Of a stretch of DNA of 64,000 nucleotides, positions 27,150 to 38,377 are shown one piece after another. The stretch is from positions 1,240,001 to 1,304,000 of the forward strand of contig CP019326.1 in the NCBI GenBank assembly GCA_001971685.1. The letters run 5' to 3'. The translations under genes and the position numbers were made by a program. This DNA comes from Halomonas sp. 1513. GTDB taxonomy: Bacteria > Pseudomonadota > Gammaproteobacteria > Pseudomonadales > Halomonadaceae. The notes below the pieces were generated by a model. It did no database searches and was not told the DNA's origin. It worked only from the letters and a program-made list of their open reading frames with translations. Each line of letters begins with the position of its first letter. The stretch's first letter is position 1.

Positions 27150-28556
27150 ATGAGCCATCGTCCCCTGGTACTGCTGCATGGCTGGAACGACGAGGGCAGT
27201 TCCTTCGAAAGGCTGGTCGGGCATCTGCGCAAGCGGCTGGGTCCCGGGCGTATTCGACGCATCGCCATCGGTGATTATCTCTCCAAGGATGACGCCCTGC
27301 GCTTCGATGATCTGCAGGCGGCTCTGGATCGCGCCTGGACCGCCCATGGCCTGCCGCGGGACGTGGCCAGCGTTGACCTCATCGTACACTCCACCGGGGG
27401 GCTGGTGATCCGTGACTGGCTGGTGCGTCACTTCGCCCCCGATGCCGTCCCGGTCAAGCATCTGGTGATGCTCGCGCCGGCCAACTTCGGCTCGCCGCTG
27501 GCCCACATGGGCCGTTCGATGCTGGGGCGTATCACCAATGGCTTCTTCAGCCGTCAGGCGGGGCAGGCGGTGTTGGAGACCGGGGCCAATATCCTGCGCG
27601 GCCTGGAGCTGGCCAGCCCCTTCAGCTGGGCATTGGCCATGCAGGATCGTTTCGCCGAGGGCGAGGGCATGTATGTCCCCGGTCGGATCCTGTGCACCGT
27701 GCTGTGCGGCAATACCGGCTACGGCGGCATCCGCTCATTGGCCAACGAGGAGGGCGGCGACGGCACCGTCCGGCTGGCCACGGCGAACCTCAACTGCGGT
27801 CATATGCAAATCGCCTTCCGCGAAAAGCAGCGCGACAGTGGCCGAGTCACCGTGCCCGAGGTGGTCGACTACCGGCCGTCCAGCGGACGCTGTGCCTTTC
27901 GGATTCTCGATGGCCTGGATCACTCGGCGATCAAGCTCGACGCCGCCGAAAGCCGACTGAGCGGTGGCCAGAAGGAGACTCTGGCGCTGATCGAGCGCGC
28001 CCTGACCATCGATGACGATGCCTTCGACGCCTTCTGTGATGAGTGCGAGGCGGCCAACCAGCAGCTGACCCGCCAGCCGGGGGACAGGCGCGGCAAACCG
28101 GGCTTCCAGAATACCGTGGTTCGCGTGCGCGACCAGTTCGACGTGCCGGTGGTGGACTATCTGATCGAGTTCTACGACCCTCGCCGCCCCGACGGCGGCG
28201 GGCTGGCGCGAACCATTCACGAGTCGGCGATTCGCAAGGTGCACAACTACCGGGCAGACCCCTCGCTGCGTAGCCTGTATATCGACACAAACCGACTGTG
28301 TGAGACCGTCGAGCGAGCCGATACTCGGCTGGGCATGTCGATCACCGCCGAGCCGATGCTGGATGAGGACGAGCACAATGCCCGTTACACCCCGGTGGGG
28401 TTTCGCACCCTGGCCGACGAGGACATCGAAGATCTCTGCCTGGACGTCGACCAGCTGAGAGCACTGTTCCAGCCTCATCGCACTCTGCTGGTGGATATCT
28501 GCCTACACCGTTCCCAGGCCGACAACGTGTTCCGACTGAACGATCCGCAAGACTGA
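27150..28556 (+). CDS. Alpha/beta-hydrolase lipase-like protein
   Basis: Predicted serine hydrolase of the triacylglycerol lipase or esterase type. It begins with the classic oxyanion strand RPLVLLHGWNDEGSSF, has the nucleophile elbow VHSTGG (GxSxG variant HSTGG), and VMLAPANFGSPLAHMG, which is typical of lipases. The hydrolase fold takes about 300 residues; the remaining 170 (from about SGGQKETLALIERAL) form an extra domain I do not recognise. No signal peptide is visible. It follows the lysozyme-like gene and converges on the patatin gene with only 12 bases between stops. Together with the patatin it could release fatty acids for the neighbouring dioxygenase; that link is inference. Confidence 0.75.
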   Translation: MSHRPLVLLHGWNDEGSSFERLVGHLRKRLGPGRIRRIAIGDYLSKDDALRFDDLQAALDRAWTAHGLPRDVASVDLIVHSTGGLVIRDWLVRHFAPDAVPVKHLVMLAPANFGSPLAHMGRSMLGRITNGFFSRQAGQAVLETGANILRGLELASPFSWALAMQDRFAEGEGMYVPGRILCTVLCGNTGYGGIRSLANEEGGDGTVRLATANLNCGHMQIAFREKQRDSGRVTVPEVVDYRPSSGRCAFRILDGLDHSAIKLDAAESRLSGGQKETLALIERALTIDDDAFDAFCDECEAANQQLTRQPGDRRGKPGFQNTVVRVRDQFDVPVVDYLIEFYDPRRPDGGGLARTIHESAIRKVHNYRADPSLRSLYIDTNRLCETVERADTRLGMSITAEPMLDEDEHNARYTPVGFRTLADEDIEDLCLDVDQLRALFQPHRTLLVDICLHRSQADNVFRLNDPQD

Positions 28557-28568
28557 CTGGCTGGGGCT

Positions 28569-29981
28569 TCAATGGCTACAGAGGCGCCCGCCTGAGCCCT
28601 CTCGCTGGCCCACCAGCTGCTGGAAGCAGGGCGACTGCTCCAGCAGCTCGGCGCCGATTTGGCGCAGCGCATCCACCTCCTCGCTGGGTAGCCGGAAACG
28701 GGTGGGGATGCGCTGGAAGCGCTCCCGTGTGGCGTCGTCGGTCAACTGATCGAAGCCCACGTAGATATAGTAGAGATCGATCTGGTGCATCCCGGTGCCG
28801 GCGTCCAGGGATAGACGCTGGGCGTCCTCGCGGTCGCGCAGCGCCTCCCTGAGCAGCTCGACCGTATCGAAGGAGTAGTTGGCCAGCGGCGTGGTGGAGA
28901 TGGTGTTGATCACCTGCCTGGGGCCGGGAGAGTGGGGCGAGGTGTCGAAGTCTGCCGCCAGGTCTTCCGACTTGGCGTCGACCACGATCACCACCAGCTT
29001 GTCGACGATTTCCCGGTTCATCTTGTTCAGCACGCTCCACTCCACTTCCTGCAGGGTAGGGGCGCGCAGGGCATCGAGGGCCGGGCGCAGGCCGATATTA
29101 TCCGAGACACCACCGTCGAGGAGGTGCACGTAGTCGCGCTCGGGCTCCTGGTAGCGCTGCCAGTGGCGGGCGCGATAGTAGCGGCGCGGGTTGGTATTCA
29201 GGCCTTCCAGGGCATTGGCCACCCAGGGCGGCTCCTGGTAGCCGCAGCGTCCGGGATAGCTGTTGAGCGTCAGCGGCGTGAAGGCGATGGGAAAGTTGGA
29301 GGAGGCCGCCACGGCGCGGGACACTGGGATGCTGTCGAGATCGACGCACATCGGGTCCAGCTGCGACTGCACGAAGGTGAACTGGGATCCCTTGTCCATG
29401 TCGGTGGCATTGATCAGCAAGAATGGCTTGCGGCCGTCGTCCGCCAGGTCGGCGAAGCTGGCCTGGCCGAACAGCCGCTCCTGGTAGACCTCCTCGGCGA
29501 GCTCGATGCGCCCGAAGGTGGGCGAGGCCAGCCTGACCCAGTTGAAAGGGCTCAGCAGCCGGCGCTTGAGGTCCGACTCGACGTTGCGGTAGAGGAACTC
29601 GCGCTGGAATCTGCCGCCCTCCTCGAAGATGGCGTCGCGCCGCAGCCCGTAGTAGGCCGCCGTAAAGCTGCCGCCGGAGACCGACGAGATGACGTCCACC
29701 TCGTCCAGCAGGTTGCGCGACTCCCCGTCCATCTCTACCCAGCTGTCGCGCAGCTTCTCAAGCACGCCGTAGGCAAGGGCGGCGGCCCGGGTGCCGCCAC
29801 CGGAGAAGCTGAGGATCACGAACAGCTCCTCGCTGTTTTCCGCACCCTCGAGGTTGGCATAGCGGTAGCCGCTGCTGGTATCGACCTGATCCAGGGGCTG
29901 GGCCTCGGGGAACGCCGCGCAGCCGGCCAGCAGCGCCAGCGCCGTGAGCGGGCCGATCAGCCGTCCGGCGACGGAGCTCAC
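28569..29981 (-). CDS. Patatin-like phospholipase, predicted lipoprotein
   Basis: Predicted acyl hydrolase with a Ser-Asp dyad, anchored in a membrane facing the periplasm. The start is GTG 29981: it overlaps the stop of the upstream 75-aa gene as GTGA and has AAGGAGT seven bases before it; the longer frame to 30122 is rejected. The N terminus GRLIGPLTALALLAGC carries a lipobox, so the mature lipoprotein begins at Cys. Patatin motifs are complete: oxyanion loop FSGGGTRAAALAYGVL, nucleophile SSVSGGSF and the DGG Asp in LLDGGVSDNIGL. It is 470 aa and is the last gene of the minus-strand four-gene operon that also carries a di-heme cytochrome. Confidence 0.88.
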   Translation of the reverse strand: MSSVAGRLIGPLTALALLAGCAAFPEAQPLDQVDTSSGYRYANLEGAENSEELFVILSFSGGGTRAAALAYGVLEKLRDSWVEMDGESRNLLDEVDVISSVSGGSFTAAYYGLRRDAIFEEGGRFQREFLYRNVESDLKRRLLSPFNWVRLASPTFGRIELAEEVYQERLFGQASFADLADDGRKPFLLINATDMDKGSQFTFVQSQLDPMCVDLDSIPVSRAVAASSNFPIAFTPLTLNSYPGRCGYQEPPWVANALEGLNTNPRRYYRARHWQRYQEPERDYVHLLDGGVSDNIGLRPALDALRAPTLQEVEWSVLNKMNREIVDKLVVIVVDAKSEDLAADFDTSPHSPGPRQVINTISTTPLANYSFDTVELLREALRDREDAQRLSLDAGTGMHQIDLYYIYVGFDQLTDDATRERFQRIPTRFRLPSEEVDALRQIGAELLEQSPCFQQLVGQREGSGGRLCSH

Positions 29982-30205
29982 CGACCCGACTCCTTGAGGG
30001 TGAACTCGACCACCAGCGGCGCCGAGGGCAGGGTATCGACGATCTCTACCCGCTGGCTCTCGGGGGCGAAGTCCTGCGGTGGGGCCAGCGTCAGCGTGTA
30101 CCAGCCGGCGTCGACCTGGCACACCGACTGGGTCCAGGCGGCGGGCTCGCCGTCGATCCAGACTTCGCGGCGCTGGGGGAAGACGACCTTCAGATACTCG
30201 GCCAT
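29978..30205 (-). CDS. Small uncharacterised protein (75 aa)
   Basis: I do not recognise this protein. It is a short, mostly beta-prone chain (EYLKVVFPQRREVWIDGEPA, AGWYTLTLAPPQDF, PLVVEFTLKESG) resembling a small carbohydrate-binding or PEGA-like sandwich, with no signal peptide or membrane segment and one Cys. AGGAG ends 8 bases before the ATG, so translation is well supported. Its stop overlaps the start of the patatin lipoprotein (GTGA), and it begins 10 bases after the cytochrome c stop, so it is made stoichiometrically with them. The tight coupling suggests a partner of the patatin; that is inference. Confidence 0.7.
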   Translation of the reverse strand: MAEYLKVVFPQRREVWIDGEPAAWTQSVCQVDAGWYTLTLAPPQDFAPESQRVEIVDTLPSAPLVVEFTLKESGR

Positions 30206-30215
30206 GGTATGTCTC

Positions 30216-31685
30216 CTATAGCGTTTTGAGGTATTCGATCAGCGCCGCCTTGTCATCGTCGTCGAGCTGGGTGCCGAAGGCTGCGCCGTCGTGCCCCTGG
30301 TTGCTATTGCCCGGCTCGGCGGTGTCGTACAGGAAGCCGTGGCGCTCGGCGGCCTCGCCGTCATGGATGAAGCCCAGGCGCTCGGGGTGGTAGACGTCGT
30401 AGCCGCGGTAGAAGCGCTCGGGGCGCTGCTCGGCGGGCTGCAGCAGGTCTTCAAGGGTGGGGACCGAGCCGTTGTGCAGGTAGGGCGCGCGCAGCCAGAT
30501 ACCGGTGAGCGGCTTGGCCACATAGCCGTCTGTCTTGACGAAGGCGTTGAAGTCCCAGGGGTACTCCTCGGCGTAGGCGTTGTAGCGCTCGGCGGCCTCG
30601 GCGGTCCACATCGCCAGGCGGTGGGGGTCGGTGCCGACCTCCGGCTGGGGGATTACCGTGCCGATGCGCGCACCCTCTAGGCCGTGGCAGCCAGCGCAGG
30701 TCTGCTGGAACACCGCTTCGCCCTCGGCGGCCAGCGCGGCGTCGAGATCGTCGAGGAAGGGGTAGGGCGGCGGACGCTTGGTCAGCAGGTACGCTTCCAG
30801 GTCGGCGAGGTCTTCCATGGGTAGTGAATCGGGGCGGGCACCGTCGCCGATGGCACCGCTCAGCACCACCTCGGTCAAGGAGTCGTTGAGGCCGTCCCAG
30901 TGCAGGGCGAAGCCCGCCTGCTCGTCCATCGCCCACAGCGGCATGATGTCGGAGTTGCCGATGGTGTCGTCCTCGGCGGGGTCGAGTGCCAGCAGGTCGG
31001 GGTGAAACTTGACCGGGTTGAAAGGGTCGATGCGCCCCGGCCCCCACCGCGGGCGCTCGTCGGTCCAGGTGAAGCGGGCGGCCTGCTCCTGGAGCCCGTC
31101 CCGGGTTCGCGGAATGATCAGGAAGCGGTAGAGCAAGCGGTCGAGCCAGGAGAGGTCGGTCTCCTCCTCGATGGCCGAGAGCAGGGTGGTGGCGGTGAAG
31201 TCCGGGTCATTGGCGGCATTCCCCAGGAAGGTCAGGTAGGCCTGGGGATCGAAGGTCTGGTGGGGGCCGGTGGGGACGATCTGACGTTCGGCGTCTTCAG
31301 CGATGCGATAGCTGGCGGTGTGGCAGGCCGCGCAGTTGATGGCGATGCGCGGAAAGCCGATGGTCTTCTTGGAAAAGCCGGCCGGCGTCGACTCGCCCTC
31401 CTCCCAGAGCATGCCAAGGCTGGCATAGCCGTCTTCCCCGGGCAGGTGCTGGGGGAAGACATCCGGCAGCACGCGCCAGATCCAGTAGGGAATGCCCTCT
31501 TCCTGCTCGGCGCCGATGGAGCCGTACAGGTAATAAGCCTCGACGCTATCGAAGCGCTGCGGCTCCTCGCGGAACAGCTGGTACCAGCCAACGACGGCAA
31601 TCGCCCCGCCGGCGATCAGCAGCAGGAGCAGCCATGCCCACCAGCGCCGCGAGGTCCTTGAAGTGTCTCGGTGTGTGGATGCCAT
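30216..31685 (-). CDS. Membrane-anchored di-heme cytochrome c (RoxA/CcpA-like), copy 1
   Basis: Predicted periplasmic electron-transfer protein or heme oxidase tethered by one N-terminal helix (WWAWLLLLLIAGGAIAVVGW). Two heme-c sites, CAACH (residues 118-122) and CAGCH (330-334), are separated by the conserved RWGPGRIDPFNPVKF and LHWDGLNDSL. The C-terminal LRAPYLHNGSVPTLEDLL is typical of di-heme peroxidase and rubber-oxygenase-like families. It is a paralog of the protein at 36.4-38.0 kb, with the same heme spacing and shared GSIG, WRVLPD.FP and WGPGR motifs. GAGGAGAG precedes ATG 31685. It lies between a small membrane protein and the 75-aa gene in one operon. Redox partner and substrate are unknown. 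Confidence 0.85.
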   Translation of the reverse strand: MASTHRDTSRTSRRWWAWLLLLLIAGGAIAVVGWYQLFREEPQRFDSVEAYYLYGSIGAEQEEGIPYWIWRVLPDVFPQHLPGEDGYASLGMLWEEGESTPAGFSKKTIGFPRIAINCAACHTASYRIAEDAERQIVPTGPHQTFDPQAYLTFLGNAANDPDFTATTLLSAIEEETDLSWLDRLLYRFLIIPRTRDGLQEQAARFTWTDERPRWGPGRIDPFNPVKFHPDLLALDPAEDDTIGNSDIMPLWAMDEQAGFALHWDGLNDSLTEVVLSGAIGDGARPDSLPMEDLADLEAYLLTKRPPPYPFLDDLDAALAAEGEAVFQQTCAGCHGLEGARIGTVIPQPEVGTDPHRLAMWTAEAAERYNAYAEEYPWDFNAFVKTDGYVAKPLTGIWLRAPYLHNGSVPTLEDLLQPAEQRPERFYRGYDVYHPERLGFIHDGEAAERHGFLYDTAEPGNSNQGHDGAAFGTQLDDDDKAALIEYLKTL

Positions 31686-31706
31686 GGCTGTCTCTCCTCG
31701 AGTGCG

Positions 31707-32084
31707 TTATGCCGTCCTTTCGGCGCGGCGGAGCAGCAACAGCAGCGCGCCCTGGGTCACGCCGAAGAACAGATCCATCAGGGCGAACAGCGGAAACTGC
31801 GGATGCAGCAGGGTGAAGAACACCACCCCGGCGAAACGCGCCAGAACGGCCAGGATGGCGATGGCCCGGAAGTGAAAGGGATCGAATGCCGCCGGCAGGT
31901 AGAACAGGCTGAGCAGGATAAGCAGCCAGGCGGCGAAGGCAGGCCACACCGGTTCGGCAACCGGGTCGCCCCCGACCAGGCTGATGACCGCGTTGGGGGC
32001 AAAGACCGCAGGCAGGGCGAAGAGGAGGTTGGCCACCACCCCCAGCAGTACCATGGCGCGAAATCCCGCTGCATAGCCGCCCAT
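31707..32084 (-). CDS. Small polytopic membrane protein, copy 1
   Basis: A 125-aa protein with about four hydrophobic helices (MVLLGVVANLLFALPAVFA, FAAWLLILLSLFYLPAAF, IAILAVLARFAGVVFFTLL, ALMDLFFGVTQGALLLLL). I do not recognise a named family. It is a clear paralog of the 130-aa protein at 38.0 kb: both carry LLYLPAA or LFYLPAA, then a DP/EP..R segment, then ALxxxxFGVxQ. Each copy sits beside a di-heme cytochrome c, here 21 bases before it. A membrane anchor or electron-entry partner for the cytochrome is a reasonable guess. It is the first gene of the minus-strand operon and is divergent from the dioxygenase. Confidence 0.8.
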   Translation of the reverse strand: MGGYAAGFRAMVLLGVVANLLFALPAVFAPNAVISLVGGDPVAEPVWPAFAAWLLILLSLFYLPAAFDPFHFRAIAILAVLARFAGVVFFTLLHPQFPLFALMDLFFGVTQGALLLLLRRAERTA

Positions 32085-32296
32085 CGCCCGATGCCCCCTG
32101 CCCTCGACGAGACTAGTCGGTCTCCATTCGTTTTCTGGTGGGAAGTCAAACCCTGTGCTAGAGGTTAGTAGTCAAGTTCGGTTAGGTCACGCTGTACCCG
32201 CGGGATTAGAACCTCTGGCTTAGGGGAGCCCGAGGCGGTTGGGCAGCATCGACTTGTTGGGTTGGCAAGGGCGGCATTGTTCAGGGGAGGCGTGCC

Positions 32297-34105
32297 ATGT
32301 TCGGTCAGCGTGGAAGCGGTCTGCTCGGTCGTGCCTTTCGGCGGATCAATCGGCGCCGTCAGTGGTATCGATTTCCCTTCCTCATCGCCGTTCTCAATCT
32401 CGTCGCTCTGCGCCGCAACCTGCGCTGGCATAACCTCTACTCCACCGAACGGGAGCGTCCGCAGGATCCCGAGCGGGAAAACATCGACGTCCGCCAGTTC
32501 CGCACCGCCGACGGCAGCTACAACGACCTGGCGGAACCCGCCATGGGCAAGGCGTATACCCGCTTCGGGCGCAACGTGCCGCCCGCCGAGACCTTCGGCG
32601 AGACCGGCGAGAGGCTGATGACACCGAGTCCCCGGGTGATCAGTCGACGCCTGATGACCCGCAATGCCTTCGTGCCCGCGACCAGCCTCAACGTGCTGGT
32701 GCCGGCCTGGCTGCAGTTCATGGTCCACGACTGGTTCAGCCACGGTAGCAACGACACCGAGGCCGAGCGCTACGAGGTGCCCCTGGACGAGGACGATGAC
32801 TGGCCCTGGGAGCGCATGACGGTGCTGCGCAGCCGGCGCGACACCACCCGCTCCGCCGCCGACGAGGGGCATCCCGACACCTTCCTCAACACCGAGACCC
32901 AGTGGTGGGACGCCTCGCAGATCTACGGCAGCAATCTACGCCGACAGCGCCTGGTGCGCACCGACCCCGACAGCGGCGAACTGCTCTCCGACGGCAAGCT
33001 CTACCTGCGGCCCGATGGCCATCTGCCGCTGGATGAACACGGCATCGAACTGGCGGGCGCCAACGGCAACTGGTGGATAGGACTGTCGCTGATGCACACC
33101 CTGTTCGCCATGGAGCACAACGCCATCGTCGACCGGCTGCGCATCGAGCACCCCGACCGCGACGGCGAGTGGCTGTTCCAGAAGGCGCGGCTGGTGAATG
33201 CGGCGCTGATCGCCAAGATCCATACCGTCGAGTGGACGCCGGCGCTGCTCGACACCCCGGAGCTGCGCCTGGGCATGCGATCCAACTGGTGGGGCGTGCT
33301 CGACGAGCACTTCTACCGCAGCCGGGGACGTGTCAGCGACAGTGAACTGTTCAGCGGTATCGTCGGCTCGCCAGTGGATCACCATGCCGCACCCTATGCT
33401 ATCACCGAGGAGTTCAGTGCCGTTTATCGCATGCACCCGCTGATTCCCGACGATTTCAGCTTCCGGCGTCTGGACGACGACACCCTGATCAAGGAGTGCG
33501 GCCTCACCGAGGTGGCCGGCTCTCTGACCCAGGCGCTGTATAAAGAGATGTCGCTCAGCGATGCGCTCTACTCGCTGGGCACCAGCCATCCCGGCGCCCT
33601 GGTGCTGCACAATTTCCCGAGTCACCTGCAGCAGCACGAGAAGCAGGCGCCCCATCATCGAATGATCGACCTGGCCACGGTGGATGTGCTTCGCGACCGC
33701 GAGCGCGGGGTGCCGCGCTACTGCCGCTTCCGCCGCTTGATCGACATGCCGGCCCCGGCGAGCTTTGCCGAGCTGACCGACAACCCCGAGTGGCAGCGCG
33801 AGCTGGAGGCGGTCTACGGCGACATCGAGGAGGTCGACCTGCTGATCGGCTGCCTGGCCGAGACCCCGCCGCCCGGCTTCGCCTTCAGCGATACCGCCTT
33901 CCGGATCTTCATCCTGATGGCCTCGCGACGCCTCAAGAGCGACCGCTTCTTCACCGACGACTACACCCCCGAGGTCTACACCCGGGCGGGGATGGAGTGG
34001 ATCGACAATAACCATATGGCGTCGGTCATCGCACGCCACTTCCCCGAACTGGCGCCGCGGCTGGAGGGCGTACGCAATGCCTTCTTCCCGTGGAACCGTG
34101 GTTAA
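32297..34105 (+). CDS. Fatty-acid alpha-dioxygenase-like heme peroxidase
   Basis: Member of the animal-type heme peroxidase superfamily, closest by eye to plant alpha-dioxygenases, which add O2 at the alpha carbon of fatty acids to give 2-hydroperoxy acids that decay to aldehydes. Distal His144 (FMVHDWFSHG), Tyr377 and proximal His380 (EFSAVYRMHPLIPD) match the catalytic His157, Tyr379 and His382 of rice alpha-DOX in order and spacing. WWDASQIYG, LVNAALIAKIHTVEWTPALL, RDRERGVPRY, ILMASRRLKSDRFFT and the C-terminal ARHFPEL are alpha-DOX hallmarks. Length 602 aa is close to the plant enzymes. No signal peptide; an amphipathic start suggests a membrane-peripheral protein. GGGGAGG precedes ATG 32297. 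Confidence 0.9.
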   Translation: MFGQRGSGLLGRAFRRINRRRQWYRFPFLIAVLNLVALRRNLRWHNLYSTERERPQDPERENIDVRQFRTADGSYNDLAEPAMGKAYTRFGRNVPPAETFGETGERLMTPSPRVISRRLMTRNAFVPATSLNVLVPAWLQFMVHDWFSHGSNDTEAERYEVPLDEDDDWPWERMTVLRSRRDTTRSAADEGHPDTFLNTETQWWDASQIYGSNLRRQRLVRTDPDSGELLSDGKLYLRPDGHLPLDEHGIELAGANGNWWIGLSLMHTLFAMEHNAIVDRLRIEHPDRDGEWLFQKARLVNAALIAKIHTVEWTPALLDTPELRLGMRSNWWGVLDEHFYRSRGRVSDSELFSGIVGSPVDHHAAPYAITEEFSAVYRMHPLIPDDFSFRRLDDDTLIKECGLTEVAGSLTQALYKEMSLSDALYSLGTSHPGALVLHNFPSHLQQHEKQAPHHRMIDLATVDVLRDRERGVPRYCRFRRLIDMPAPASFAELTDNPEWQRELEAVYGDIEEVDLLIGCLAETPPPGFAFSDTAFRIFILMASRRLKSDRFFTDDYTPEVYTRAGMEWIDNNHMASVIARHFPELAPRLEGVRNAFFPWNRG

Positions 34106-34141
34106 CGCAGATAGATCTCGGATAGCGGACAGGGAGGCAGC

Positions 34142-35050
34142 ATGGCCAGGCGCCTGCACATCCCCGGGCTGATCAACGTTCTGGAGGTCACCGACCCCGG
34201 TGAGATTCGCCTGCTCGACGGCGACTCACGCCTCGACCGCTCCTTGGCACCCAGCGGCGGCGTGATCAATCGACTGCGCCTGGCGCGCCTGCGAGACGCT
34301 TTCGTCTTCGATGGCGAGCCGCTACCGGCCCTGCAGGGCCGCGAGGCCGAGGGGCGCGAGTCACGCCACGCCGAGCTGGGGCGGCGCCTGGACGAGGGCG
34401 CCGAGGCAGCGGCCTGGCGCCAGGATCCGGCCTTCAAGACCCTGCTGGAGGGGGTCGCCGGCCAGGCCGACGTCGAGGCGTTGGGCCCCGCCGCCCAGGG
34501 GCTGCTGGGGCGGCGGTTCCACGACGATTACCGGGCCGACGAGGCGACCTTTGCGGCGGCCCGTCGGCTCAATGACTATCCGCGCACCCAGGCGTTACGT
34601 GCCCTTCTCCAGCGCCTAAGCGGCCAACTCCGCCGCGACCGCCAACTGCTGCATGACAGCGCCCAAGGGGATGCCATGACCCTGCATGCCACCAGCGTGG
34701 CGGTGCATAACCTGGTGGGGGCGCTGGAGGCGATGCGCGCCCTGGCCGGCACGTCGGGCGCCGCGTCGCTGCCCCAGGCGGCGGTGCTGGCACGCTGCCT
34801 CAGCGTACCGGAAACGCTGCTGCGCCAGGTGCTGGCGCCGCTCTCGACACCGTGTTCCCCGCGGCGCCTGGTGCCCGGCGATCTGGTACTGCTGCGACTC
34901 GCCGAGGGCGTTCGCAGCAGCGGCGACCGGGAGTTGGCCTTTATGAGCGATAGCTGGGCGCGCTGTCCGGCCCAGCGTTTCATCCTGGCGCTGCTGGCCG
35001 ATACCTGGGTGCAGGCCGTGGCAATCCGCTCAGGGGAGGGCGGGCGATGA
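34142..35050 (+). CDS. Uncharacterised protein between dioxygenase and OYE reductase (302 aa)
   Basis: I do not recognise a family. The chain is soluble-looking, Arg/Ala/Leu-rich and largely helical, opening RRLHIPGLINVLEVTDPGEI, with GLLGRRFHDDYRADEATFAAAR in the middle and AVHNLVGALEAMRALA later. Near the end, WARCPAQRFILALLADTW vaguely recalls a P450 heme-Cys segment (CPG..F), but the other P450 motifs are absent and the tail is too short, so I do not claim it. It starts 36 bases after the dioxygenase stop, with GGACAGGGAGG upstream, and overlaps the OYE gene (ATGA). Co-translation argues for a role in handling the dioxygenase product. Confidence 0.75.
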   Translation: MARRLHIPGLINVLEVTDPGEIRLLDGDSRLDRSLAPSGGVINRLRLARLRDAFVFDGEPLPALQGREAEGRESRHAELGRRLDEGAEAAAWRQDPAFKTLLEGVAGQADVEALGPAAQGLLGRRFHDDYRADEATFAAARRLNDYPRTQALRALLQRLSGQLRRDRQLLHDSAQGDAMTLHATSVAVHNLVGALEAMRALAGTSGAASLPQAAVLARCLSVPETLLRQVLAPLSTPCSPRRLVPGDLVLLRLAEGVRSSGDRELAFMSDSWARCPAQRFILALLADTWVQAVAIRSGEGGR

Positions 35051-36402
35051 GCGAGGATGTCATCTTCTCGCCGCTGGCGTGGCGCAACCTGCAGGTCAAG
35101 AACCGCCTGTTCCGCTCGAACATTTCCGGGCGATTCGACAACGAGGACGGCAGCCTGACCCAGACCCGCATCAACTGGGAGTGCCAGTTTGCCCGGGGCG
35201 GCGTCGGCGCGATCGTCTCCTCCTTCGTGCCGGTGCAGATGGAGGGGCGCATCATCGCCGGCTATGCCACCATCCATCGCGACGACTTCATCCCACTATG
35301 GCAGCGCCTCGGCGAGGCGGTGCACCGCTTCGACTGCAAGTACATCCTGCAGCTCAGCCACTCCGGCCGACAGATGGATCTCCCCGGGGTCCACAATCAG
35401 CATCGCCGGTCGCTCAGCTCCACCGACCACCAGGAGTCTCTGCACGGCTTCCTGTGCCGGGCGATGAGCGAGCATGAGATCGAGCGCACCGTCCAGGCCT
35501 TCGCCGACGGGGCCTGGCGGGCCCGGGAGGCCGGGCTCGACGGGGTGGAGCTGCATGCCGCCAACGGCTACCTGTTCACCCAGTTCCTGAGTTCCGCCAT
35601 CAATGACCGACGCGACCGCTACGGCGGCTCGCTGGCCAACCGCGCACGCTTCCTGCTGGAGGTGATCCGCGCCATTCGCGAGCGGGTGGGGCCGGACTTC
35701 CACCTGCAGGTCAAGATCAGCGCCGTGGACCACAACGACATCCTGCCCTGGGAGCGTAAGGGCAATACCCTGGCGGAGAGCCTGCAGGTGTGTCGCTGGG
35801 TCGAGACGGCGGGGGCCGACGCCCTTCACGTGTCGGTGGGCAGCCTGTTCCCCCACCCCCTGAACCCGCCGGGGGACTTCGCCTTCGACACCATCGCCAG
35901 CACCTACGACGCCATGCTCTCCGCTGGCACCAACACCTTCCGCAACTACCTGCTGTTTCGCTATTCATCGTTGCGCTGGATCTTTCGCTGGCTGTGGTCG
36001 CGTCACCAGCGCGGCCATGCCGTAGAAGGGGTGAGTCTCGATGAGGCCCGCGCGGTACGCCAGGCGGTGGACATTCCGGTGATCAGCACCGGCGGCTATC
36101 AGCGCGCCTCACTGGTGCGCGAGGCCATCGCCAGCGGGGCCTGTGACGCGGTCTCCAGCGCCCGCGCGCTGATCGCCAACCCCGATCTGCCCAAGCAGTG
36201 GCAGGTCGGGCAGGACGAACCGGCACGCCCTTGCACCTTCTGCAACAAGTGTTTGCTCAACGCGCCCAAGAACCCGCTGGGCTGCTACGAACTGTCGCGC
36301 TTCGACGGCGACCATGAGCGCATGATCGCGACCCTGATGAGCATCTACGACACCCGCCCCGAGCTGCGCCTGCCCTCGGTGCCGCCAGCGCAGAATCCGT
36401 GA
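35047..36402 (+). CDS. NADH:flavin oxidoreductase, Old Yellow Enzyme family
   Basis: Predicted FMN ene-reductase (TIM barrel). Visible features: opening FSPLAWRNLQVKNRLFRS, the active-site HAANGYLFTQFLSSAINDRR followed by DRYGGSLANR (YGGS signature), and FMN phosphate-binding VISTGGYQ. Cysteines in CTFCNKC with a later GCYE resemble the 4Fe-4S site of 2,4-dienoyl-CoA reductases, but the C-terminal NADPH domain of those enzymes is missing, as the protein is only 451 aa. OYE enzymes reduce activated C=C bonds, for example 12-oxophytodienoate in plant oxylipin synthesis. Its place after the dioxygenase suggests it reduces unsaturated oxidation products. Substrate unproven. Confidence 0.88.
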   Translation: MSEDVIFSPLAWRNLQVKNRLFRSNISGRFDNEDGSLTQTRINWECQFARGGVGAIVSSFVPVQMEGRIIAGYATIHRDDFIPLWQRLGEAVHRFDCKYILQLSHSGRQMDLPGVHNQHRRSLSSTDHQESLHGFLCRAMSEHEIERTVQAFADGAWRAREAGLDGVELHAANGYLFTQFLSSAINDRRDRYGGSLANRARFLLEVIRAIRERVGPDFHLQVKISAVDHNDILPWERKGNTLAESLQVCRWVETAGADALHVSVGSLFPHPLNPPGDFAFDTIASTYDAMLSAGTNTFRNYLLFRYSSLRWIFRWLWSRHQRGHAVEGVSLDEARAVRQAVDIPVISTGGYQRASLVREAIASGACDAVSSARALIANPDLPKQWQVGQDEPARPCTFCNKCLLNAPKNPLGCYELSRFDGDHERMIATLMSIYDTRPELRLPSVPPAQNP

Positions 36403-36409
36403 GGCTGCC

Positions 36410-37960
36410 ATGAGATCACAGGAGCCACCCGTCACCGCCGTACAACAGGAGGCCCGCCGCCGGCGCTGGCGGCGTCTGCCGCTGAGCCTGCTCGCCCTGG
36501 CCGTGGTGTTGGCCGGCCTGTTGGCCCTGGCGATCGGCGTGCCGACCCTGTGGCGCTATAGCGGCGAGTCGGTGCGTCACTACGCCGACCCGGAGACCCA
36601 CTTCCTGCATGGCTCCATCGGCAGCGAGGTCAGCGGCCTCCCGGTGCGACTGTGGCGGGTACTGCCGGACCTGTTCCCGGACGCCTTCGACGACCAGCAC
36701 TATGAGGCGTTCGGCTTCCTCTACGCGGCGGGCGATGAGGCCAGCCGTGGGGACCTGCCCATCGGCCTCGGGGCCCGCGAGGTGCGCGGGGTGGAGATCG
36801 CCTGGTTCAACTGTGCGCTGTGCCACGTGGGGACGGTCCGCGAGTCGCCGGATGCCGCGCCGCGACAGATCGCCGGCATGCCGTCCAACAACCTGGACCT
36901 CTACGCCTTCATCGGCTTTTTGCTGGAGATCGCCGATGACCCGCGGCTGGCGCCGGACAGCGTGCTGGCGGCCATGGACGAGCAGGGGCAGTCGCTGGGC
37001 ATGATCGAGCGGCAGGTATGGCGCTATGCGGTCTTGCCCCAGGTGCGCGAGGGGCTGCTGGAGACCCGCGCTACGCTCGCGCCGCTGCTGGCCGAGCAGC
37101 CGCCATGGGGGCCAGGGCGCGTGGATACCTTCAACCCCTACAAGCTGCTGCAGTTCGGCATGAGCGCGGCAGACTTGGATGCGTCGGAGCGGATCGGCAC
37201 CAGCGACTTCCCGGCCATCTTCCACCAGCGCCCCCGGCAGGGCATGGATCTGCACTGGGATGGCAATAACGCCTCGCTGCAGGAGCGCAACCTGAGCGCC
37301 GCCATCGGCGCCGGGGTGACCGAGGAGAGCGTCGACCACGTCGGCATCGAGCGAGTGGCCGACTGGCTGCTGGACCTCGAGCCGCCGCCTAGCCCCTATC
37401 GCCCCGATCCCGACGCGGTGGCCGCCGGCAAGCCGCTCTACATGCGCCACTGCGCCGACTGCCACGGCTACCAGCAGGGCGAGCGCTACGTCTTCGAGGG
37501 CGAGCGCCTCGGCCAGGTGCTGCCCAACGATCTGCTCGGCGGCGATCCGGCCCGGCTCGACAGCTACACCGAGACCCTGCAGCGCTATCAGCTGACCCTG
37601 TTCGAGGACGACGAGCGCTACCGCTTCCGGCACTTCCGTAAGACCGACGGCTACGCCAACCTGCCCCTCGACGGACTCTGGCTGCGCGCGCCCTACCTGC
37701 ACAACGGCGCCGTGCCGACCCTGTACGACCTGCTGCTGCCGCCGGCAGATCGTCCGCAGGCCTTCGTGCGTGGGCTGGACGTGCTGGATGAGGAGAAGGG
37801 CGGTTTCGTGGCGCCGGACTGCACGCCCGGCGAGCCCCTGGCGGAAGGCTTCTGCTTCGATACCAGCCAGCCCGGCAACGGCCGCCAGGGGCATGATTAC
37901 GGCAGCGAGCTGACGACGCAGGAGCGCTCGGATCTGCTCGATTACCTACTGACCTTTTGA
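36410..37960 (+). CDS. Membrane-anchored di-heme cytochrome c (RoxA/CcpA-like), copy 2
   Basis: Paralog of the minus-strand cytochrome at 30.2-31.7 kb. One N-terminal helix (LPLSLLALAVVLAGLLALAI) after a basic stretch anchors it with the hemes in the periplasm. Heme sites are CALCH (residues 135-139) and CADCH (348-352), with WGPGRVDTFNPYK and DLHWDGNNASL between and LRAPYLHNGAVPTLYDLL after. It is 516 aa against 489 in copy 1. It starts seven bases after the OYE stop, so it belongs to the dioxygenase operon. It might carry electrons from, or act as peroxidase on, the products of the pathway; which one cannot be told from sequence. Confidence 0.85.
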   Translation: MRSQEPPVTAVQQEARRRRWRRLPLSLLALAVVLAGLLALAIGVPTLWRYSGESVRHYADPETHFLHGSIGSEVSGLPVRLWRVLPDLFPDAFDDQHYEAFGFLYAAGDEASRGDLPIGLGAREVRGVEIAWFNCALCHVGTVRESPDAAPRQIAGMPSNNLDLYAFIGFLLEIADDPRLAPDSVLAAMDEQGQSLGMIERQVWRYAVLPQVREGLLETRATLAPLLAEQPPWGPGRVDTFNPYKLLQFGMSAADLDASERIGTSDFPAIFHQRPRQGMDLHWDGNNASLQERNLSAAIGAGVTEESVDHVGIERVADWLLDLEPPPSPYRPDPDAVAAGKPLYMRHCADCHGYQQGERYVFEGERLGQVLPNDLLGGDPARLDSYTETLQRYQLTLFEDDERYRFRHFRKTDGYANLPLDGLWLRAPYLHNGAVPTLYDLLLPPADRPQAFVRGLDVLDEEKGGFVAPDCTPGEPLAEGFCFDTSQPGNGRQGHDYGSELTTQERSDLLDYLLTF

Positions 37961-37984
37961 GACTACCGGCCCGGGAGCACTGAT

Positions 37985-38377
37985 ATGCAGACCTCAAACG
38001 ATGTGTTCGCGACCTATCGGCGGGTGATGCAGGTGGGGATCGCCCTCAATGTGCTGCTGGGCCTGTGGCTGTGGCTCTGGCCGGTCAGCCTGCTGGGGGT
38101 GATGGGCGCCGACCTGCCGTACCCGCTGACCTGGGTGCGCTACGCCGGCCTGGCCATGATCGTGGTTGGACTGCTCTACCTGCCGGCCGCCCTGGAACCG
38201 CTGCATAATCGACTGGTGGCGCTGCTGTCGATCCTGTTTCGTGGCCTTTTCGCGCTGTTCTTCCTGTTCGCCACCGGCCTTCTATGGCTGCCGGCGCTGT
38301 TCGAGGCGCTGTTTGCCGTACTCCAGGGCGTGACCTTCTGGCGGGCCTGGCGTGGCGACCTGATGGCCAAGCCCTGA
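37985..38377 (+). CDS. Small polytopic membrane protein, copy 2
   Basis: A 130-aa protein with four hydrophobic segments (VGIALNVLLGLWLWLWPVSL, AGLAMIVVGLLYLPAAL, LLSILFRGLFALFFLFATGL, LFEALFAVLQGVTFW). It is paralogous to the 125-aa protein at 31.7-32.1 kb and, like it, sits next to a di-heme cytochrome c, here 24 bases downstream of it. GGGAG lies eight bases before ATG 37985. It closes the plus-strand dioxygenase operon and converges on greB, 19 bases away. No family name can be given. Confidence 0.8.
   Translation: MQTSNDVFATYRRVMQVGIALNVLLGLWLWLWPVSLLGVMGADLPYPLTWVRYAGLAMIVVGLLYLPAALEPLHNRLVALLSILFRGLFALFFLFATGLLWLPALFEALFAVLQGVTFWRAWRGDLMAKP

Follow-up and report, generated by a model that had tools for sequence, protein, structure and literature searches.

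The stretch of DNA that we analysed (the window; 64,000 nucleotides, positions 1,240,001 to 1,304,000 of contig CP019326.1) belongs to the genome of Halomonas sp. 1513, which is a single contig of 4.13 Mb. Its plus strand contains an operon of five genes, headed by a gene for a plant-type alpha-dioxygenase (alpha-DOX; 32297..34105), a heme dioxygenase of the cyclooxygenase (COX)/peroxidase superfamily (protein P0001, 602 amino acids (aa); PF03098, E 6e-111). The second gene (34142..35050) encodes P0002, a compact P450-fold protein of 302 aa with an invariant cysteine (C275), which is the proposed hydroperoxide-converting partner; it had been left as 'unknown' in an earlier note on this DNA. 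It is followed by genes for an FMN reductase of the old yellow enzyme (OYE) family (P0003, 451 aa, 35047..36402; PF00724, E 1.5e-61, main stretch 6-268), a RoxA-like di-heme cytochrome c (cytA, 516 aa, 36410..37960; NF040606 and PF21419) and a small helical membrane protein, the family of which was seen across loci (memA, 130 aa, 37985..38377). The spacings are 36, -4, 7 and 24 bases, the genes of P0002 and the OYE overlapping by 4 bases. A divergent intergenic (promoter) region of 212 bases (32085..32296) is common to this operon and to memB (125 aa, 31707..32084), cytB (489 aa, 30216..31685) and a patatin gene, which start from it on the minus strand. CytB is a second RoxA-like di-heme cytochrome c and a paralogue of cytA (38% identity); memB is a paralogue of memA (pairwise comparison: 32% identity, E 2e-10). 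Every gene that the earlier note had named was present, and the coordinates confirm that the alpha-DOX operon is compact.

A scan of named genomes yielded 417 loci with a relative of alpha-DOX. The best 80 (15 from Halomonadaceae and 65 others) were searched with the window proteins and then with profiles, with at most 10 kb of flank on each side. The complete order alpha-DOX, P0002, OYE, di-heme cytochrome, membrane protein was present in all 15 Halomonadaceae loci, which also had the divergent cytB-memB pair (15/15), and in 20 of the 65 others. The latter include Ectothiorhodospira, Caulobacter, Ensifer, Labrys, Roseibium and Rhizobium; metagenome-assembled genomes (MAGs) labelled Burkholderiales and Anaerolineae also had this order, with the proviso that MAG labels may be wrong. 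Because the same five genes occur in the same order in distant taxa, the cassette is more than chance. The check on a conserved neighbourhood that the earlier note had proposed thus did not refute it: dioxygenase, OYE, cytochrome, membrane protein and the 'unknown' protein recur as a block.

At least one partner gene was found in 39 of the 65 other loci (P450-like gene in 28, OYE in 30 at E < 1e-150, cytochrome in 26, membrane protein in 26). Contig ends explain some of the missing partners, as fewer than 5 kb were available downstream in 15/65. The P450-like profile was built from the same loci; a single-sequence phmmer search with P0002 alone found 26 of the 28. The divergences of four of the genes were correlated (r 0.77-0.89, 24 loci), a result that plain vertical descent gives as well. 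In two Methylobacterium loci (L079, L080) alpha-DOX was followed by a memA relative, and the P450-like gene, a dedicated OYE and the cytochrome were lacking.

P0001 matched the solved rice and Arabidopsis alpha-DOX structures (4kvj/4hhr) over about 585 residues with E of about 1e-110 (phmmer); the next solved family was lactoperoxidase, at only E 1e-27. Alignment to the rice enzyme placed the catalytic tyrosine at Y377, the proximal histidine at H380 (in Y-R-M-H) and a further histidine at H144, which we take to be the distal one, so that the His-Tyr-His of plant alpha-DOX reported for this protein was recovered. The rice numbers Y379 and H382 are from excerpts of PMC8720084, with a chain offset of 3 derived by hand. 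The carboxylate-binding residues H311, T316 and R559, taken as rice numbering, correspond to H309, T314 and R545 of P0001, and all are kept. From these comparisons the assignment of P0001 to the alpha-DOX family is well supported, and oxygenation of fatty acids at C2 would be its probable activity.

Bacterial alpha-DOX is not new; according to excerpts of PMC8720084 it has been reported from five phyla. In the family of the window genome its distribution is patchy, with a match in 26 of 275 genomes: 16 full-length at an identity of at least 85%, nine of a second, longer alpha-DOX-like type with inserts (G009, G012, G035, G098, G099, G107, G117, G120 and G151) and one marginal. Franzmannia pantelleriensis and other Halomonadaceae, with 95-96% alpha-DOX identity, are among the closest named relatives at the locus.

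The predicted fold of P0002 (AlphaFold2 (AF2) model) is that of a cytochrome P450, and the model matched solved P450s, the listed chains of which have at least 362 aa, against 302 aa in P0002. Structure models were built from alignments A2 and A5 only. A2, the P0002-family alignment, holds 33 sequences: the window and 32 of 43 matched loci, without L075 and L093, which are truncated or split, and without nine close repeats from Halomonadaceae. C275 was kept in 33/33 sequences and sits, in the predicted model, just before the last helix (L, 278-296). W272, P276 and A277 were each present in 31/33, giving W-x-x-C-P-A, and an asparagine at position 190, in the presumed I helix, was present in at least 90%. 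An amide at this I-helix position has been tied to prostacyclin synthase (PGIS), plant allene oxide synthase (AOS), linoleate diol synthase (LDS) and epoxy alcohol synthase (EAS) (PMC13049297, excerpts). PF00067 gave no match for P0002 or six of its relatives; Pfam and NCBIfam both miss P0002, and PHROGs had no match for P0002 or P0005. Judged from the model, P0002 seems to be related to the cytochromes P450, with an unusually small size.

The linkage of these genes was also seen outside the selected loci. Among 398 phylum-wide genomes the P450-like gene occurred in 4 and the cytochrome (E <= 1e-50) in 4, with both in 3 (hypergeometric 1.5e-6, or 0.01 without the two Halomonadaceae among the three). 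In 248 genomes of the family of genome G669, the P450-like gene and a near alpha-DOX (E 1e-150 or better) were each found in 5 genomes; 4 had both, adjacent to each other (hypergeometric 1.6e-7). These four are not independent, since three come from one genus. In G669 itself the pair stands without other partners in 19 kb; in G753 an alpha-DOX is present and the P450-like gene was not detected. In the cyanobacterium Iningainema tapete alpha-DOX and the P450-like domain are fused in one open reading frame of 948 aa, and in Okeania the P450-like gene follows alpha-DOX. Both matched the family profile at E of about 1e-69 when the profile included them, and at 3e-6 with the first profile, from which both were excluded.

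Other partners adjoin alpha-DOX in further bacteria. A canonical P450 (PF00067) does so in three Moorena records and a Verrucomicrobiota MAG (L107:8383-9675, L106, L102, L130); Moorena bouillonii has in addition a short-chain dehydrogenase/reductase and, on the opposite strand, OYE-cytA-mem-cytB. A lipoxygenase-family gene (PF00305) adjoins alpha-DOX in four Nitrospira records and Archangium (L118:11831-13495, L114, L122, L125, L115), calls that rest on Pfam matches, the histidine pattern having been of no use. Other lineages have therefore placed oxylipin-type partners beside alpha-DOX, and the oxylipin theme gains weight from this.

P0003 has a PF00724 barrel with the active-site residues H170 and N173, and a tail of four cysteines (C396-x2-C399-x2-C402-x10-C413) that is presumably like the 4Fe-4S site of FadH-type enzymes. 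Across 46 aligned sequences, one of them P0003, H170, N173 and the four cysteines were kept in at least 95%. Near residues 268-327 we read an insertion with many aromatic and basic residues, which could make contact with the membrane. The Pfam scan found no FAD/NAD domain in P0003, and its scores against the mycofactocin and BaiCD models were far under their cut-offs. No hydrophobic segment was found in it, and the OYE should therefore be cytosolic. An OYE of the dedicated type also adjoins alpha-DOX in L113, L120 and L123 (Bryobacterales, Bryobacter and Acidobacteria MAGs) and in L117, L129 and L132; the P450-like gene and the cytochrome were not found in the sequence examined of these six.

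CytA and cytB scored 154 and 178.4 bits against NF040606 (cut-off 150), a family named di-heme cytochrome c peroxidase; a relative in L092 stayed under the cut-off with 138. CytA has an N-terminal hydrophobic segment (20-50). Both proteins contain two CxxCH motifs, a PY(L/F)HNG(S/A)V-type motif and a C-terminal axial histidine. Every related cytochrome among those listed had two CxxCH, and the exact PY(L/F)HNG(S/A)V was missing from one (L055); 17 chosen from this set make up alignment A4. Compared with RoxA (4b2n), the inter-heme tryptophan is kept in both; the position of F317, essential in RoxA, is Ala in cytA and Asp in cytB, in a weak part of the alignment. Their scores against the RoxA, RoxB and RoxC models were 39-69 bits, below cut-offs of 900-1000. 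For the AF2 model of memA (pLDDT 88.9) no PDB match was found at E <= 0.001, and the protein had no Pfam match. Excerpts of PMC4496055 describe as RoxA-like the Pseudomonas proteins PA2077 and PA2078, a fatty-acid (oleate) 10S-dioxygenase and a diol synthase; the oxylipin theme gains weight because cytA and cytB share this class with them.

The name of NF040606, the residues at the F317 position beside a retained inter-heme tryptophan, and an OYE without FAD/NAD domain and with 4Fe-4S-like cysteines would also suit another role, in which each cytochrome would form, with its membrane-protein partner, a redox module taking electrons from lipid-oxidising flavoenzymes. The OYE would then act as a dehydrogenase and the di-heme protein as electron sink or peroxidase, not as an oxygenase; the steps proposed below for alpha-DOX and P0002 would be common to both views. 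Genome G419 fits such a module: mem and cyt are joined there in one open frame of 646 aa (L160), which adjoins an 1150-aa glucose-methanol-choline (GMC; cholesterol-oxidase-like) oxidoreductase plus alpha/beta hydrolase and a calcineurin-like phosphoesterase. Electrons would, however, have to pass from an OYE that is presumably cytosolic to c-type hemes in the periplasm, and the membrane-protein family has no invariant histidine for heme b. We regard this alternative as doubtful.

We read the operon as a bacterial fatty-acid oxygenation system of the oxylipin type, acting stepwise, with a probability of about 0.5. In the first step, alpha-DOX would convert a free fatty acid to the 2-hydroperoxide. 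P0002, taken as a heme-thiolate protein, would then cleave or rearrange the O-O bond of the 2-hydroperoxide without a redox partner, as do the P450s of fungal dioxygenase-P450 fusions, plant AOS and prostacyclin synthase, in competition with spontaneous decarboxylation to the Cn-1 aldehyde. In line with this, none of the five genes resembles a ferredoxin or a P450 reductase (Pfam scan). Next, the conjugated carbonyl or peroxide so formed would be reduced by the dedicated OYE, which would carry FMN and perhaps also a 4Fe-4S cluster. Finally, the RoxA-like di-heme proteins, anchored in the membrane, facing the periplasm and each with its small membrane partner, would perform another oxygenation or accept electrons. 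We infer that the genes work as one pathway, that P0002 acts on this substrate and that the cytochromes have this role.

A number of observations weigh against this reading. The heme loop FxxGx(H/R)xCxG was lacking in the P0002 family, an FGTGSPERAC-like loop being confined to two cyanobacterial rows of the alignment. Nor was the ExxR of the K helix seen: there was no conserved Glu, and the commonest Arg column before P223 reached 20/33. Since these signatures are lacking, we do not claim membership of the P450 superfamily for P0002; its predicted P450 fold and the conserved cassette are solid computational results. The family profile gave six matches among PDB sequences, all at chance level and none a solved P450, hhalign of the family against the Moorena P450 gave nothing, and the AF2 model is heme-free. 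The cyanobacterial relatives, fused and separate, are only 15-18% identical to P0002. In G734 the P450-like gene, OYE, cytA, mem and cytB occur without alpha-DOX in 19 kb (outside this region the genome has a weaker alpha-DOX match). Conversely, no partner was found in 26 of the 65 loci outside Halomonadaceae, so alpha-DOX also occurs alone. It is not obvious what the OYE would do with a 2-hydroperoxide product, and, with a cholesterol-oxidase-like flavoenzyme beside it in G419, the cytochrome could be a redox partner of a general kind.

The missing ExxR and the short chain would be expected as well if P0002 were a non-catalytic carrier or assembly partner of alpha-DOX. A cysteine kept in every sequence, the W-x-x-C-P-A around it and the asparagine of the presumed I helix argue against such a role, which we think unlikely. 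Among the substrates that OYEs and cytochrome c peroxidases reduce are electrophiles or peroxides. The cluster might serve in detoxification: the alpha-DOX would make a defensive compound, and around it the P450-like protein, OYE and di-heme peroxidases would scavenge lipid hydroperoxides or aldehydes. In P. aeruginosa, overexpression of PA2077 was toxic and that of the complete operon with PA2078 was not (PMC4496055, excerpts). The partner genes recur with alpha-DOX, however, and there is no catalase or peroxiredoxin among the five genes; we consider detoxification quite unlikely.

The oxygenation pathway can be stated more broadly, and then more tentatively, as a possible bacterial dioxygenase-P450 system. 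Here alpha-DOX would be paired, and once fused, with a new heme-thiolate family of about 300 residues, perhaps among the smallest P450 folds, that needs no redox partner to convert 2-hydroperoxy fatty acids. Together with the dedicated OYE and the RoxA-like di-heme enzymes it would make up an oxylipin pathway of prokaryotes, of which Pseudomonadota have the full set and Cyanobacteria and Acidobacteria a part.

The patatin gene (28569..30122, minus strand; lipobox-like LLAGC) and a lipase gene (27150..28556, plus strand) that adjoins the divergent operon lie next to the cluster, and the earlier note had them release the fatty acids that feed alpha-DOX. Patatin was present in 6/15 and lipase in 8/15 Halomonadaceae loci (L067 ends before their expected place); in the flanks searched, the other 65 loci gave no sign of either gene. 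Both are local neighbours, in near relatives only. The lipase-fed part of the scheme, suggested by the adjacency in the window, is very improbable.

The divergent intergenic region contains a block, TGTGCTA(A/G)AGGTTAGT...GGTCACG, kept in 12/16 aligned Halomonadaceae regions (the window, L054, L058 and L060-L068; absent from L055, L056, L057 and L059). The block may be an operator or a common promoter. Between 32000 and 38500, scanning for sigma-70 sites gave nothing that resembled a promoter. A palindrome, GAGAC..GTCTC (32109-32124), was rejected as operator, since the 230 bases upstream of alpha-DOX contained it in 0/15 relatives. Of the neighbour families, F5-F7 were nearly all antisense shadows, two tested members of F4 were GGDEF/EAL genes and one F9 member was a protein kinase. 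Some relatives have such genes next to the operon, GGDEF/EAL or GGDEF (L055:16169-17833; L069:16272-17846).

Searches of titles and the beginnings of abstracts, with subscription journals mostly outside their range, gave no description of this cluster among the matches listed. Bacterial alpha-DOX is described in excerpts of PMC8720084 as a single enzyme for aldehyde production; a conserved operon with a hidden P450-fold partner would provide a pathway context for it. The cassette suggests that bacteria, like fungi, have dioxygenase-P450 teams, with P0002 as a compact P450-like scaffold missed by the family databases. For the RoxA-like di-heme class, which has a known link to oxylipins in Pseudomonas, it adds a second context of lipid oxygenation.

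P0001 shares with the plant and cyanobacterial alpha-DOX (AtDOX1, OsDOX, CalDOX and LepDOX; PMC8720084, excerpts) full-length similarity, the catalytic tyrosine, both histidines and the carboxylate-binding His/Thr/Arg. What sets it apart is its place in an operon of five genes, one of which encodes a P450-fold partner; in that paper's main text, 'gene cluster' and 'operon' have 0 occurrences. CytA and cytB have in common with the rubber oxygenases RoxA and RoxB and with PA2077/PA2078 (FadCcp; PMC4496055, excerpts) two CxxCH, the PY(L/F)HNG(S/A)V-type motif, the C-terminal axial histidine and the inter-heme tryptophan. They are shorter (489-516 aa, compared with 624-634 and about 670 aa in that group) and do not keep F317. 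The OYEs with a 4Fe-4S motif (2,4-dienoyl-CoA reductase, BaiCD) resemble P0003 in the PF00724 barrel, H170/N173 and the four-cysteine tail, whereas P0003 lacks their C-terminal FAD domain and has CxxCxxC spacing and the aromatic/basic insertion. The fungal dioxygenase-P450 fusions (LDS, AOS and EAS; PMC13049297, excerpts) likewise combine a COX-type dioxygenase with a P450-fold protein bearing an I-helix amide, and the cyanobacterial fusion has the same arrangement; in the other loci the genes are separate, the dioxygenase is an alpha- and not a linoleate dioxygenase, and the partner is a protein of about 300 residues that PF00067 does not recognise.

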